Origin: Candidatus Nanopelagicus abundans
GTDB lineage: Bacteria; Actinomycetota; Actinomycetes; Nanopelagicales; Nanopelagicaceae
DNA: 64,000 nucleotides
Direction of reading: 5' to 3'
Assembly: GCF_002288305.1 (NCBI RefSeq)
Contig: NZ_CP016779.1
Location: 62,001 to 126,000 of the forward strand
Shown: positions 3,901-7,955 of the stretch, in pieces
How the letters are laid out: each line of letters begins with the position of its first letter
Numbering within the stretch: position 1 is the first letter of the stretch
Translations under genes and position numbers: made by a program
The notes under the pieces: model-generated
What the model was told of the DNA's origin: nothing
The model's input: only the letters and a program-made list of their open reading frames with translations
Database searches by the model: none

Positions 3901-5348
3901 TGAGTACTGTTTTAGATAGTAGATCTTTCCTACGCTGGTGCTGGCGACAATTAACGAGTATGCGCACAGCCTTAATCTTGCTTCTTTTACTAAGCATTGC
4001 AGCTATTCCTGGATCTTTATTTCCACAACGTACACAAAATCCATTAAGGGTTAGAGAGTATTTTGTTAACGACCCCGAAACAGCAAAGTGGCTAGATCGG
4101 TTTAGTCTTTTTGATGTTTATGGATCACCTTGGTTTAGCGCAATTTATCTACTTCTGTTTATTTCATTAATTGGTTGTGTCCTACCTAGGAGTATTGAAC
4201 ACTTAAAAGCTATCGGTGCAAAGCCACCAATTACTCCAAAAAATTTAGATCGGATGGAGTTTTTTACTGAAATTGAAAAAGTGGACCTAGATTTAGCTGA
4301 AAAATATTTAAAGAAGAAGGGGTTTCGAATTCGTAGGGATATTGATTCAATATCCGCTGAAAAGGGTTATGCAAGAGAGAGTGGAAACCTTTTATTTCAT
4401 CTATCTCTTGTTTTAGTTTTAATTGCTATTGGTGTTGGCTCATTATTTGGCAGTAAAGGCGATGCCATATTAAATGTTGGAGAGCGTTTTATAAATACAC
4501 CAACTTCATACGACATTTTAGGATTTGGTAAGTATCAGTCTGAAGATTCACTGCCGCCATTTTCAATAACTGCGAAAGCTTTTAAAGCTGAATATGATCC
4601 AGCAACAAATGCACCATTGGATTACACCCTCACAATTAATACTGCTAACCCAGTAGGCTCATTAGAAAGAGATGAAGTTATAAAAGTAAATAAACCACTT
4701 AAGTACGGAAGTACCAAAATATATTTACAAGCGAACGGTTATTCACCAACCGTGATCGTAAAAGATAAGAGTGGCAAAGTTGTATTAGATGGTCCAGTTA
4801 CTTTTTTACCACAGGACGGAAATCTTTCATCGATTGGTGCAATTAAAGTGCCCGATATGGACCCTCAAATTGGATTTGTCTCATCTTTTTTACCTACCGC
4901 AGATAGAGATCTAGTAAGGGGAGGATTTTCTTCATACCCTGAGGTACTAGATCCAAGATTGTTAATTTCAGTTTGGCAGGGTGATTTAGGTCTTAACACC
5001 GGAGTCCCACAATCTGTGTATCGAATTGATACAAGCGAGATGCAGAGAATTGGTCTTAAAGCCTTAGTACTTAACGAAACTTATGATTTTGGTGAGGGCA
5101 GCATCACATTTACAGGTTGGAAATCTTGGGTTAATTTACAAATAGTTAATGATCCTGGCAAAGGTTATGCATTATTAGGTGCAATACTTGCGATCTTAGG
5201 TTTATTAATTTCATTAGTTACTAGACAAAGAAGAGTTTGGATTAAGCAAGGTAGAAAAACTCAAGTTGCAGGTCTTGCAAAAAATGCAATTCCAGGACTA
5301 GAGAATGAGATAAATGATTTAGTAAAGGAGTTAAGTAATGAGCGATAA
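3900..5348 (+). CDS. resB: ResB/Ccs1: cytochrome c synthetase subunit
   Basis: ResB pairs with CcsB in System II cytochrome c maturation, which exports heme and attaches it to apocytochrome c. The protein is 482 residues from the ATG at 3900; the frame is open further upstream to 3840 but that would overlap ccdA by 61 bases, and the TAATG junction fits the pattern of its neighbours. It has three N-terminal hydrophobic helices, a large external domain of about 250 residues, and a last helix near LLGAILAILGLLISL before a basic cytoplasmic tail. The motif SIAAIPGSLFPQR after the first helix is typical of the family. It overlaps ccsB by eleven bases. Confidence 0.92.
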   Translation: MSTVLDSRSFLRWCWRQLTSMRTALILLLLLSIAAIPGSLFPQRTQNPLRVREYFVNDPETAKWLDRFSLFDVYGSPWFSAIYLLLFISLIGCVLPRSIEHLKAIGAKPPITPKNLDRMEFFTEIEKVDLDLAEKYLKKKGFRIRRDIDSISAEKGYARESGNLLFHLSLVLVLIAIGVGSLFGSKGDAILNVGERFINTPTSYDILGFGKYQSEDSLPPFSITAKAFKAEYDPATNAPLDYTLTINTANPVGSLERDEVIKVNKPLKYGSTKIYLQANGYSPTVIVKDKSGKVVLDGPVTFLPQDGNLSSIGAIKVPDMDPQIGFVSSFLPTADRDLVRGGFSSYPEVLDPRLLISVWQGDLGLNTGVPQSVYRIDTSEMQRIGLKALVLNETYDFGEGSITFTGWKSWVNLQIVNDPGKGYALLGAILAILGLLISLVTRQRRVWIKQGRKTQVAGLAKNAIPGLENEINDLVKELSNER

Positions 5349-6237
5349 AGTAGCAGCACTTTTATCAAACGATTTTATTTATGCTGCTATGGCTCTTTAT
5401 ACCCTTTCCTTTTTAACACATGCTATTGAGGTTGCTTGGTCAATTAAAACCCCTGCGGTTTCAGTTAAAAAAACTAAGCTAGATTTTTCTCGCACTGAAA
5501 GAGTTGGAAGACTTGCCTCAGCTTTCATGATTATTGGCTTTCTACTTTTACTAGTTGCCGTAGTTTTACGAGGAATATCCGCTAATAGAGTTCCTTGGGG
5601 AAATATGTATGAGTTTTCAATTACTGGAGCACTAGCATTTTCAGCTGCTTATTTATTTGGTTTAAAGAAATACAAGATTCGCTACCTAGGACTTCCGGTA
5701 GCTTTTACAGTGCTATTAACCCTTGGTACAGCAATTACTTTGCTTTATCGCCCAAGTGCCCCATTAGTTCCAGCACTTAAATCTCCTTGGCTTGTAATTC
5801 ATGTTTCTACAGCAATAATTTCAGGTGGAGTTTTCCTACTTGCTAATTGCGTTGCTGCAACATATTTAATATTAGATAGGTATGAACAAAAAGGCGCTAG
5901 ACCTAGTTGGGCTTTAAAGTTACCAACTCTTGAGGTGCTAGATAATCTTTCTTACCGATTAGTTGCATTGGTATTTCCATTATGGAGTTTTTCAGTTATC
6001 GCTGGTGCGATTTGGGCAGAGGCTGCTTGGGGACGTTACTGGGGTTGGGATCCAAAAGAGACTTGGGCGTTTATTACATGGGTTGCTTATGCGGCCTATC
6101 TACATGCTCGCGTGACAGTGGGTTGGCGCGGTCGACGCGCAGCATGGCTATGCATCTTTGCAGGATCAACATTCTTATTTAACTATGTCTATGTAAATGT
6201 GTGGGGAACCGGCAAACATACATACTCAGGTTTGTAA
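5338..6237 (+). CDS. ccsB: CcsB/ResC: heme-handling cytochrome c synthetase subunit
   Basis: A 299-residue polytopic membrane protein. The diagnostic tryptophan-rich WWD segment is clear: WGRYWGWDPKETWAFITW. Histidines in VIHVSTAIISG and AAYLHARVT fit the conserved heme-ligand positions. Together with ResB it forms the heme exporter and lyase of System II. The product would mature the cytochrome c parts of the respiratory chain; no cytochrome c gene is in this window, so the clients lie elsewhere. It is the last gene of the cluster, with 14 bases before the next start. Confidence 0.93.
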   Translation: MSDKVAALLSNDFIYAAMALYTLSFLTHAIEVAWSIKTPAVSVKKTKLDFSRTERVGRLASAFMIIGFLLLLVAVVLRGISANRVPWGNMYEFSITGALAFSAAYLFGLKKYKIRYLGLPVAFTVLLTLGTAITLLYRPSAPLVPALKSPWLVIHVSTAIISGGVFLLANCVAATYLILDRYEQKGARPSWALKLPTLEVLDNLSYRLVALVFPLWSFSVIAGAIWAEAAWGRYWGWDPKETWAFITWVAYAAYLHARVTVGWRGRRAAWLCIFAGSTFLFNYVYVNVWGTGKHTYSGL

Positions 6238-6251
6238 GAAAACTTAATTAG

Positions 6252-6845
6252 ATGATTTCTGCAGAAGTAGTTGGCTTTATTGCAGGAGGCATTGGAATTT
6301 TCTTCGGGCTTCCGCAAGCGTTACGTGTTAGAAAATTAGGTCACGGCCGTGGGGTAAGTTTAATTTCCTGGACTCTACAATTCGCAGTTGCAGCTTCTTG
6401 GGCAACATATGGTTTTGATTCGAAATCACCATCTATTATGTTTACAAATCTTGTTGCTTTATTAGTAAACGCCAGCGTAATTATGGCAATCTTGAAAAAT
6501 AACGTGAAATCTATTTCACTGCTAATAATCTACGCAGCAATATGGGCCACTTTGATACTCGTTCTACCAAGTGCAGCCGTTTCAACCTTGTTAGTTGCTT
6601 TAAACTTTGCGCAATCGCCTCAAGTAGTTAAGTCTTTTCACAATATTCGAGTTGGAAAAGATTCAGCAGTTTCGATAACCGCTCTAAGCGTAAGCTGCTT
6701 CAGTATCCTCATCTGGATTCTCTATGGATTTATGGCCGATGATTCACTAATTAAGGTGAGTGCGTTAGTAGCTCTTTCAATTAATTCATTAATTATTGCT
6801 TTAGAACTTATTGGAAAACGTAAGCGTGCTTTAGATTTTGCGTAA
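6252..6845 (+). CDS. SWEET-like transporter with two PQ-loop repeats (predicted 7 TM)
   Basis: A 197-residue, very hydrophobic protein. It holds two copies of a PQ-loop unit: FFGLPQALRVRK with WATYG in the first half, and NFAQSPQVVKSF with WILYG in the second. Hydrophobic segments fall near 5-22, 36-54, 60-80, 85-105, 108-123, 140-160 and 165-187, a 3+1+3 pattern like eukaryotic SWEET sugar facilitators. Most bacterial relatives are SemiSWEETs of about 90 residues with a single unit. Substrate is unknown; sugars are the family default. It sits 14 bases after ccsB, and its 3' end overlaps the convergent PLDc_N gene by 15 bases. Confidence 0.8.
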   Translation: MISAEVVGFIAGGIGIFFGLPQALRVRKLGHGRGVSLISWTLQFAVAASWATYGFDSKSPSIMFTNLVALLVNASVIMAILKNNVKSISLLIIYAAIWATLILVLPSAAVSTLLVALNFAQSPQVVKSFHNIRVGKDSAVSITALSVSCFSILIWILYGFMADDSLIKVSALVALSINSLIIALELIGKRKRALDFA

Positions 6846-7082
6846 GAAATCTGGATCGTCATCGGGTGGAATAATCCGACCTTTACCGCCACGGTTTTGT
6901 CTTGGTTTTCTTGGCCGGCCAGCTATAAACCAGGCAATATTTCCAAAAGTCCTAGTGAAAAGAATTATCAATAACCAAGCCCACTTTGGAAATCTTCTTA
7001 CTTTTTCTTGAGGCGTAATTGCGCAATCAATTAATGTGTAGATATCAAATATTACGAGCAGAACAATTAAATACTTAAGCAT
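6831..7082 (-). CDS. Small PLDc_N-domain membrane protein
   Basis: An 83-residue protein with two hydrophobic helices (about 3-20 and 34-54) and a basic, glycine-rich tail. The sequence DCAITPQEKVRRFPKWAWLLIILFT style, ending in NIAWFIAGRP, matches the N-terminal domain of cardiolipin synthase-like proteins (PLDc_N) that occurs alone in many actinobacteria. No phospholipase HKD motif is present, so it is not itself an enzyme of that type. It commonly lies near menA/menE in actinobacteria (from memory). Start is supported by a TAAAGT box exactly six bases before ATG. Confidence 0.75.
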   Translation of the reverse strand: MLKYLIVLLVIFDIYTLIDCAITPQEKVRRFPKWAWLLIILFTRTFGNIAWFIAGRPRKPRQNRGGKGRIIPPDDDPDFLRKI

Positions 7083-7088
7083 GTGTCT

Positions 7089-7094
7089 ACTTTA
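7089..7094 (-). promoter_or_regulatory. Leaderless-type -10 box of the PLDc_N gene
   Basis: Minus-strand TAAAGT, then AGACAC, then ATG at 7082. No Shine-Dalgarno is visible, so a leaderless transcript is the simplest reading. Confidence 0.5.
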
Positions 7095-7106
7095 TACCCT
7101 CTATTC

Positions 7107-7955
7107 CTAGATAGATAGTGAAATTGCAAGTGTTAGTGCTAACAAAAATTGCAGCCTTGAAGTCTTACCCAAAATTGTAATCAATTCTTTACCACTCGCT
7201 CCTTTAAGGACTTGATTCGCTGCACTATATGTAAGCGGAAGCCAGAGCAAGGTAAGAAGGGCATAATTATCAATACTAGCTGCCGCTGCAGCACTTACTT
7301 GAGCTAGTACAAGTAGTAGTAAGTAGAAAATACGAGTATTAGCATCTCCTAATTTAACTGCCAAGGTTCGCTTTGAAACTAATTTATCTTGATTTAAGTC
7401 CCGTAAATTATTGATGACTAAAATAGCGCAAGATAAACTACCCATTGGAATCGAAAGTAGTAGTGCACTACTTGATATTTGCTCAACCTGAACATAGTAG
7501 CTACCAACTGTTGCCACTATTCCAAAAAATATAAATACAGCTACCTCACCAAAGCCTAAATATCCATATGGTTTTTTACCACCCGTATAACCCCATGCAG
7601 CCAAAATCGAAATCAAACCAACGGCTATTAACCAGATAGATGTGTTAAATGCCAGGAGTGTTCCAGCAATTATTGCAACAAAAAATGAAATAAAGGAAGC
7701 ATTTTTAACTGAACCAGCAGGTGCCAAATTAGATGCGACTAAGCGGGTTGGGCCTACTCGATTGGTATCAGTCCCACGCACACCATCTGAAAAATCATTT
7801 GCGTAGTTGACTGCAATTTGAAGTGATAGTGAAACTATTAGTGCAAGTAATGCATTAATTACTTTAATTTGATCTGCAAGTGATGTTCCAACTATTACCG
7901 GTGCGATGGCTGCAGGTAAAGTTTTAATTCGTGCACCTAAAATCCATTTATTCAT
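7107..7955 (-). CDS. menA: MenA: 1,4-dihydroxy-2-naphthoate polyprenyltransferase
   Basis: A 282-residue UbiA-family integral membrane prenyltransferase. It joins the polyprenyl tail to DHNA, giving demethylmenaquinone. The first Asp-rich motif is NYANDFSDGVRGTD near 50-63 and the second is NNLRDLNQD near 182-190; both bind Mg-diphosphate of the prenyl donor. About eight or nine hydrophobic helices are visible, and N-terminal KWILGARIKTLPAAIAPV is typical of MenA. It overlaps the end of menE by eight bases, so menE-menA is one leftward operon. The prenyl donor is probably made by the synthase gene at 29.4-30.4 kb. Confidence 0.93.
   Translation of the reverse strand: MNKWILGARIKTLPAAIAPVIVGTSLADQIKVINALLALIVSLSLQIAVNYANDFSDGVRGTDTNRVGPTRLVASNLAPAGSVKNASFISFFVAIIAGTLLAFNTSIWLIAVGLISILAAWGYTGGKKPYGYLGFGEVAVFIFFGIVATVGSYYVQVEQISSSALLLSIPMGSLSCAILVINNLRDLNQDKLVSKRTLAVKLGDANTRIFYLLLLVLAQVSAAAAASIDNYALLTLLWLPLTYSAANQVLKGASGKELITILGKTSRLQFLLALTLAISLSI

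Follow-up and report, generated by a model that had tools for sequence, protein, structure and literature searches.

A two-unit SWEET-like membrane protein gene at the ccsB/PLDc_N junction of Candidatus Nanopelagicus abundans

We analysed a stretch of 64,000 nucleotides from Candidatus Nanopelagicus abundans (contig NZ_CP016779.1, positions 62,001 to 126,000), hereafter the window, in which the gene of a SWEET-like membrane protein, P0001, lies between ccsB and a gene for a small PLDc_N-domain protein. P0001 is a two-unit SWEET-type membrane protein, probably with seven helices. Its gene probably entered this junction by homologous recombination with DNA of a second genus, g273, judging from the last part of ccsB, which resembles g273 more than the window's own genus, g1. 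The two genera are taken here as Ca. Nanopelagicus (g1) and, probably, Ca. Planktophila (g273). Taken as a whole, the reading that we favour, and consider reasonably probable, is that P0001 is a two-unit SWEET-type facilitator for a sugar or another small solute, imported at the ccsB/PLDc_N junction by recombination with g273 DNA.

Two SWEET-type units in one chain

The open reading frame (ORF) of P0001 begins with ATG and encodes 197 amino acids. Each half of the protein contains a PQ motif and a W-x-x-Y-G motif (Table 1). The initial annotation had described two PQ-loop units of this kind, and both were found by a profile made only from SemiSWEET segments, four from solved and two from other SemiSWEETs and none from the Nanopelagicales clade. 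This profile matched unit 1 over residues 6-81 (E 4.6e-14) and unit 2 over residues 118-186 (E 4.5e-7), and the next best match after P0001 among 223 ORF fragments of the window had an E of only 0.033. In profile comparisons with SemiSWEETs, half 1 reached E 1.7e-13 and half 2 reached E 7e-11. When P0001 alone was used in a single-sequence search, each half hit solved SemiSWEETs, with E values of 5.5e-5 and 6.9e-5. A full-length family profile, built from 12 full-length actinobacterial proteins including 5 of the Nanopelagicales clade, aligned to AtSWEET13 (5xpd) in one colinear stretch, 6-182 on 11-209, with E 1.3e-6. The 3+1+3 order of the units around a linker, also proposed at the outset, is supported by homology.

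The whole protein scores 33.9 bits with Pfam MtN3_slv, which is its best Pfam family and has a gathering cut-off of 23.7; the single best stretch in the six-frame genome search scores 21.8 bits, below that cut-off. With the Pfam PQ-loop family (PF04193), P0001 reaches 11.9 bits, under the gathering cut-off of 22. Three NCBIfam SemiSWEET models give 53, 43 and 33 bits, under their respective cut-offs of 80, 100 and 200. At E<=0.01, two of them match each of the 12 sequences in alignment A6 and the third matches 10. One of these models, NF037967 SemiSWEET_1 (196 positions), is a curated bacterial model of full-length size, which P0001 matches over residues 8-177 with 33.4 bits against a cut-off of 200, and so falls outside it. 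P0001 also differs from a SemiSWEET in the sense of a single dimerising three-helix unit, having two units in its chain.

The loop charges of P0001, counted with loop limits chosen by hand, fit the positive-inside rule with the N-terminus outside and the C-terminus inside: 3, 2, 3 and 4 Lys and Arg residues in the loops predicted to be inside and 0, 1, 0 and 0 in those predicted to be outside. The ratio of non-synonymous to synonymous substitution rates (dN/dS) of the gene is about 0.2 between relatives, and the protein, as judged from the sequences, is under purifying selection.

Pocket residues and probable function

Pocket residues are numbered as in 4qnc, where the pocket is lined by Trp48 and Asn64 (Jia et al. 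2018, PMC5972207). In LbSemiSWEET, Asn64 and Thr13 touch the sugar from one protomer only, while the Trp residues of both protomers sandwich it (PMC5972207). The equivalent of Trp48 is found in 13/13 first halves and 13/13 second halves of the Nanopelagicales clade, and that of Asn64 in 13/13 first halves and 2/13 second halves. Asn in both halves, which is a typical but not a defining trait of SWEETs, is thus not a feature of the clade as a whole. In P0001, Asn is present as N66 in half 1 and the equivalent position of half 2 is A171. A further 16 actinobacterial two-unit proteins all have Trp in both halves; Asn is found in the first half of 6 and in the second half of 2.

From these sequence features we infer facilitated diffusion of a sugar or a similar solute. 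P0001 would allow a small sugar, or a polar solute like it, to cross the cytoplasmic membrane by diffusion, its two three-helix bundles rocking about their PQ prolines. W50 and W155 would stack on the sugar ring, and the pocket Asn would be provided by N66 of half 1 alone. A one-sided pocket of this kind would be expected if fusion had let one half drop its Asn. The copy in genome G024, which is the only other copy of the own genus and the sole copy seen near sugar genes, has a gene for an FGGY carbohydrate kinase one gene away, followed by a PfkB kinase and a DeoC/LacD aldolase (locus L047, 1029-5259).

Several observations weigh against this picture. The AlphaFold2 model of P0001, made from three closely related sequences with 80-83% identity to the first, is poor, with a mean predicted local distance difference test score (pLDDT) of 45. 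It draws eight helical pieces, including the short neighbours 107-121 and 123-134. In addition, the 19-residue hydropathy profile separates neither helices 3-5 from one another nor helix 6 from helix 7, and the 3+1+3 helix count of P0001 therefore comes from homology. The profile comparison of half 1 with half 2 is modest (E 7e-5, probability 63%), and a search of the Protein Data Bank with P0001 alone found no plant SWEET at E<=1. The 11 of 13 second halves without Asn have Ala (5), Ser (4) or Thr (2) in its place, and the clade has not retained residues equivalent to Thr13, Phe17, Asp32 and Pro59; because of these losses the substrate may be other than a hexose. The neighbours of the window copy, cytochrome c maturation genes and the PLDc_N gene, have no role in sugar use, and no sugar genes were recognised in the flanks of the copies in G668, G631, G651 and G608, where part of the ORFs was searched.

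The missing pocket residues (Asn from most second halves, the Thr13, Phe17 and Asp32 equivalents from both) and the absence of adjoining sugar genes in the window could also be explained if P0001 were a PQ-loop family protein for another class of substrate, such as amino acids or another small metabolite, and 9 of 13 clade members do match the Pfam PQ-loop family at E<=0.01. We regard this as unlikely, however, although it deserves attention: MtN3_slv is the best family and is over its cut-off while PQ-loop is well under, the NCBIfam SemiSWEET models match all or most sequences of alignment A6 even though P0001 is under their cut-offs, each half retains its Trp of the pair, and one copy lies near sugar kinases. 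A SWEET-type facilitator for a sugar or similar solute remains our preferred function. A functional tie to cytochrome c maturation through the neighbouring ccsB was also considered and is unlikely, because five copies (G024, G668, G631, G651 and G608) have no ccsB in the flanking DNA examined.

Relation to known SWEETs and origin of the two halves

The seven-helix bacterial form of SWEET is already known, and P0001 adds a member from the Nanopelagicales. Twenty bacterial homologues with seven transmembrane (TM) helices, including PaSWEET of Pseudoalteromonas, have been reported (PMC5972207), and homologues with 6 or 7 helices are mentioned by Jia et al. 2017 (PMC5742349). Most members of cluster 1 of Jia et al. 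2018 have, like P0001, a PQ-loop repeat (PMC5972207). For SWEETs in Nanopelagicales, we found no paper among the matches listed from the open-licence PMC literature, and the passages of PMC7527133 examined mention neither SWEET nor MtN3.

Each half of P0001 aligns with the solved SemiSWEETs (4qnc, 4qnd, 4rng, 4x5m and others) over the PQ and W-x-x-Y-G motifs, and half 1 also over the Asn. SemiSWEETs have one unit per chain and are dimeric (PMC5972207), whereas P0001 has two unlike units per chain. The plant SWEETs OsSWEET2b (5ctg) and AtSWEET13 (5xpd) have the 3+1+3 order predicted for P0001, and the latter is the structure to which the family profile is colinear. However, PQ is kept in both halves of P0001, while the four plant halves read PT, TT, SI and AV. 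The Asn is located in half 1 of P0001 but in both plant second halves, although the Asn column of the plant first halves is probably misaligned. With SemiSWEETs being dimers of like units and plant SWEETs being fused unlike halves, proteins of the P0001 type offer a natural test of what fusion allows; in this bacterial protein, the fused halves keep the Trp pair and mostly one Asn only.

A tree was calculated from 76 halves over 87 columns. Loci L041 and L116 were dropped beforehand, loci repeating others were left out, and the 5ctg halves were cut by hand. The 13 first halves of the Nanopelagicales all group in a single clade, and so do the 13 second halves, with support of 99/99 for each of the two; therefore, the two units parted before the Nanopelagicales clade arose. 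This supports an old divergence of the halves, first described as not very recent. The Nanopelagicales second halves join the second half of L003, a two-unit protein of the same class (95/86), while the first half of L003 is found elsewhere in the tree on a long branch. The best tree places the plant halves among SemiSWEETs and apart from those of Actinomycetota, a position with long branches and modest support. Six trees constrained to unite the Nanopelagicales halves with those of plants, with one another or with those of other Actinomycetota gave p values of the approximately unbiased test (p-AU) of 0.0975-0.527, and none was rejected. Because no constrained tree was rejected with 87 columns, the tree allows one fusion as well as several, and the independent duplication-fusion suggested at first, for which the phylogeny of the halves has now been run, is not established.

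It is doubtful that the 3+1+3 form of the Nanopelagicales clade and that of eukaryotic SWEETs stem from one shared fusion event. Such an event would fit the colinearity of the full-length profile with AtSWEET13, and the trees joining the clade to plant halves were not rejected (p-AU 0.272 for first halves and 0.227 for second halves), but the best tree, within the limits of its branch lengths and support, sets the plant halves apart from the actinobacterial ones, and of the six trees the one that unites all first halves has the lowest p-AU (0.0975).

Occurrence, insertion site and probable transfer

Relatives of P0001 were found in 12 of 296 genomes and 2 of 17 genera of the order Nanopelagicales: 2 genomes belong to g1 (25 genomes) and 10 to g273 (135 genomes). 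A contig scan with two peptide patterns (alignment A2) matched 17 stretches, with 2 loci confirmed, L047 and L048. The SWEET-like gene is thus an accessory gene of freshwater Nanopelagicales with a patchy occurrence. In a sample of 296 genomes of the phylum Actinomycetota, to which phylum sampling was limited, 25 matches were obtained, of which 14 are two-unit by domain search and 11 were counted as one-unit; the profile was made from two-unit proteins, and the proportion is biased toward that form. Less sensitive searches made before had given 11/396 and 10/296. The second unit of one of the 14 (G158) is only partial. Among the 11, G062 has no unit at all in the domain search and G170 has, in one of the less sensitive searches, a longer match broken by stop codons. 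The rarity first ascribed to a full-length bacterial form is weakened by the published homologues (PMC5742349, PMC5972207) and by these 14 matches. In the window's own order, with 12 of 296 genomes, the form remains uncommon.

The SWEET-like gene starts 14 nt past ccsB and, at its 3' end, overlaps the PLDc_N gene, which is convergent with it. None of the 18 own-genus loci examined has the gene at this junction; there the distance between the last codons is 1 in 15 loci and 7, 8 and 67 in the others, the last of these being an incomplete match. Two more own-genus contigs, which are truncated, also look empty. The G024 copy is located between genes for an M23 peptidase and an ABM protein, and the ccsB/PLDc_N junction of G024 is without the gene. 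In g273, where 121 genomes gave a match, 30 loci were examined; the gene is present at the junction in 6 of these, 23 have 3-17 nt instead, and one, L070 (266 nt), is ambiguous. In L070 (genome G557), the ccsB match stops early, leaving 266 nt before the PLDc_N gene, and the genome has two separate matches to the end of ccsB.

The last 178 nt of the window ccsB were compared with 29 rows of g273 (L070 was left out) and 18 rows of the own genus. Identities are 79.8-93.8% for g273 and 71.3-78.7% for the own genus, so that every g273 row is higher. The three best matches (G544, G605 and G579) all carry the gene at the junction. At window positions 5880-5999, within ccsB, the order is reversed, with 65.8-81.7% for the own genus and 55.8-66.7% for g273, leaving aside a g273 row that covers just 32 nt. 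Own-genus G015 (65.8%) is inside the g273 range. At positions 6000-6059 the two genera show no clear difference. A binned comparison with 17 chosen genomes gave the same pattern upstream and again placed the PLDc_N gene nearer to the own genus, with a slight overlap, since own-genus G004 goes down to 64% and 55% in two of three bins. Because identity switches from own-genus type to g273 type between 5880-5999 and 6060-6237, the left breakpoint would fall at about 6000-6060, within or close to the conserved codons for GWDPKETWAF (6043-6072); the right one would be near the end of the gene.

The window ccsB thus looks like a hybrid of two genera. Recombination with g273 DNA would have replaced the tail of ccsB and added the gene of about 600 nt at the ccsB/PLDc_N junction. 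This route is preferred over others because the ccsB tail seems to have arrived with the gene. Synonymous distances of the SWEET-like gene are 0.54 between the window and G579 and 0.44 between the window and own-genus G024; those to the g273 copies G605, G544, G545 and G554 are at least 1.7 or saturated. Two points fit the import less well. The other gene-bearing g273 genomes, G545, G675 and G554, take no better than places 10 to 12 among the 29 rows compared for the ccsB tail, and the genome with the closest tail (G544) is not the one with the closest gene (G024, then G579). Because of this last mismatch no one genome stands out as the donor, and the tract may be a mosaic. An ancestral presence of the gene at this junction throughout the family, followed by many losses and with vertical inheritance of the window copy, is very improbable: six g273 genomes do carry it at the same junction, but the window has a g273-type ccsB tail within otherwise own-genus ccsB and, with slight overlap, PLDc_N sequence, the G024 copy sits elsewhere with its own junction empty, and 18/18 own-genus loci are empty.

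The ending GKHTYSGL, as against GRHTYSGL, was considered as a donor marker at the C-terminus of CcsB and rejected, both forms being present in the own genus (GRHTYSGL in four genomes; L015, L020 and L021 match the KH pattern of the window). Of 50,697 phage records searched for a possible carrier, none matched at E<=1, and a viral contig scan gave 5 pattern matches, with no relative confirmed. The plasmid search gave a single weak partial match (E 0.7) to a Microvirga plasmid, in a region with no annotated feature. A mobile element is not evident for the transfer, no search for insertion sequences or integrases having been made.

The probable import by recombination suggests a route by which a transporter gene may be added to a very small genome, through conserved neighbouring genes. 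More broadly, and tentatively, the two-unit SWEET gene of genome-streamlined freshwater Actinomycetota could be an exchangeable cassette of about 600 nt, swapped between genera through ccsB on the left and PLDc_N on the right and leaving hybrid ccsB genes behind, and its product could go back to a duplication-fusion in bacteria that was distinct from that of eukaryotes, the loss of the second Asn having left the pocket one-sided. Neither the probable transfer nor the value of the protein as a test of fusion overturns existing knowledge.

Table 1 Features of the SWEET-like gene and its insertion site in the window.
Feature	Position	Strand	Basis
Two-unit SWEET-like membrane protein gene (3+1+3, probable), P0001	6252..6845	+	ORF, motifs, Pfam, SemiSWEET-only profile
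Unit 1, residues 1-84: P21-Q22, W50, Y53-G54, N66	6252..6503	+	Unit profile (includes Nanopelagicales clade sequences) and SemiSWEET-only profile matches
Linker, residues 85-104, probable TM4	6504..6563	+	Unit spacing; colinear family-profile alignment with AtSWEET13
Unit 2, residues 105-191: P123-Q124, W155, Y158-G159, A171 replacing Asn	6564..6824	+	Unit profiles, pocket alignment
ccsB, cytochrome c assembly protein, apparent hybrid gene	5338..6237	+	Pfam Cytochrom_C_asm
ccsB last 178 nt, foreign-genus type, probable upstream part of recombination tract	6060..6237	+	Identity comparison
PLDc_N-domain small protein, convergent, right edge of insertion site, mostly own-genus type	6831..7082	-	Pfam PLDc_N

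A promoter and terminator scan of positions 5800-7200 gave no excess over shuffled sequence. Beside the cytochrome c maturation genes, the segment 7107-12466 of the window contains an apparent menaquinone cluster, in which a UbiA-family member was assigned by Pfam and the rest by eye. At the ccsB/PLDc_N junction of G675 (L052 / L074), two unlike SWEET-like genes are found in tandem. The last residues of the first product are GKLTYSGL, almost identical to the CcsB ending GKHTYSGL, and the arrangement looks as if a second copy had been inserted when the end of ccsB crossed over with that of the transporter gene.
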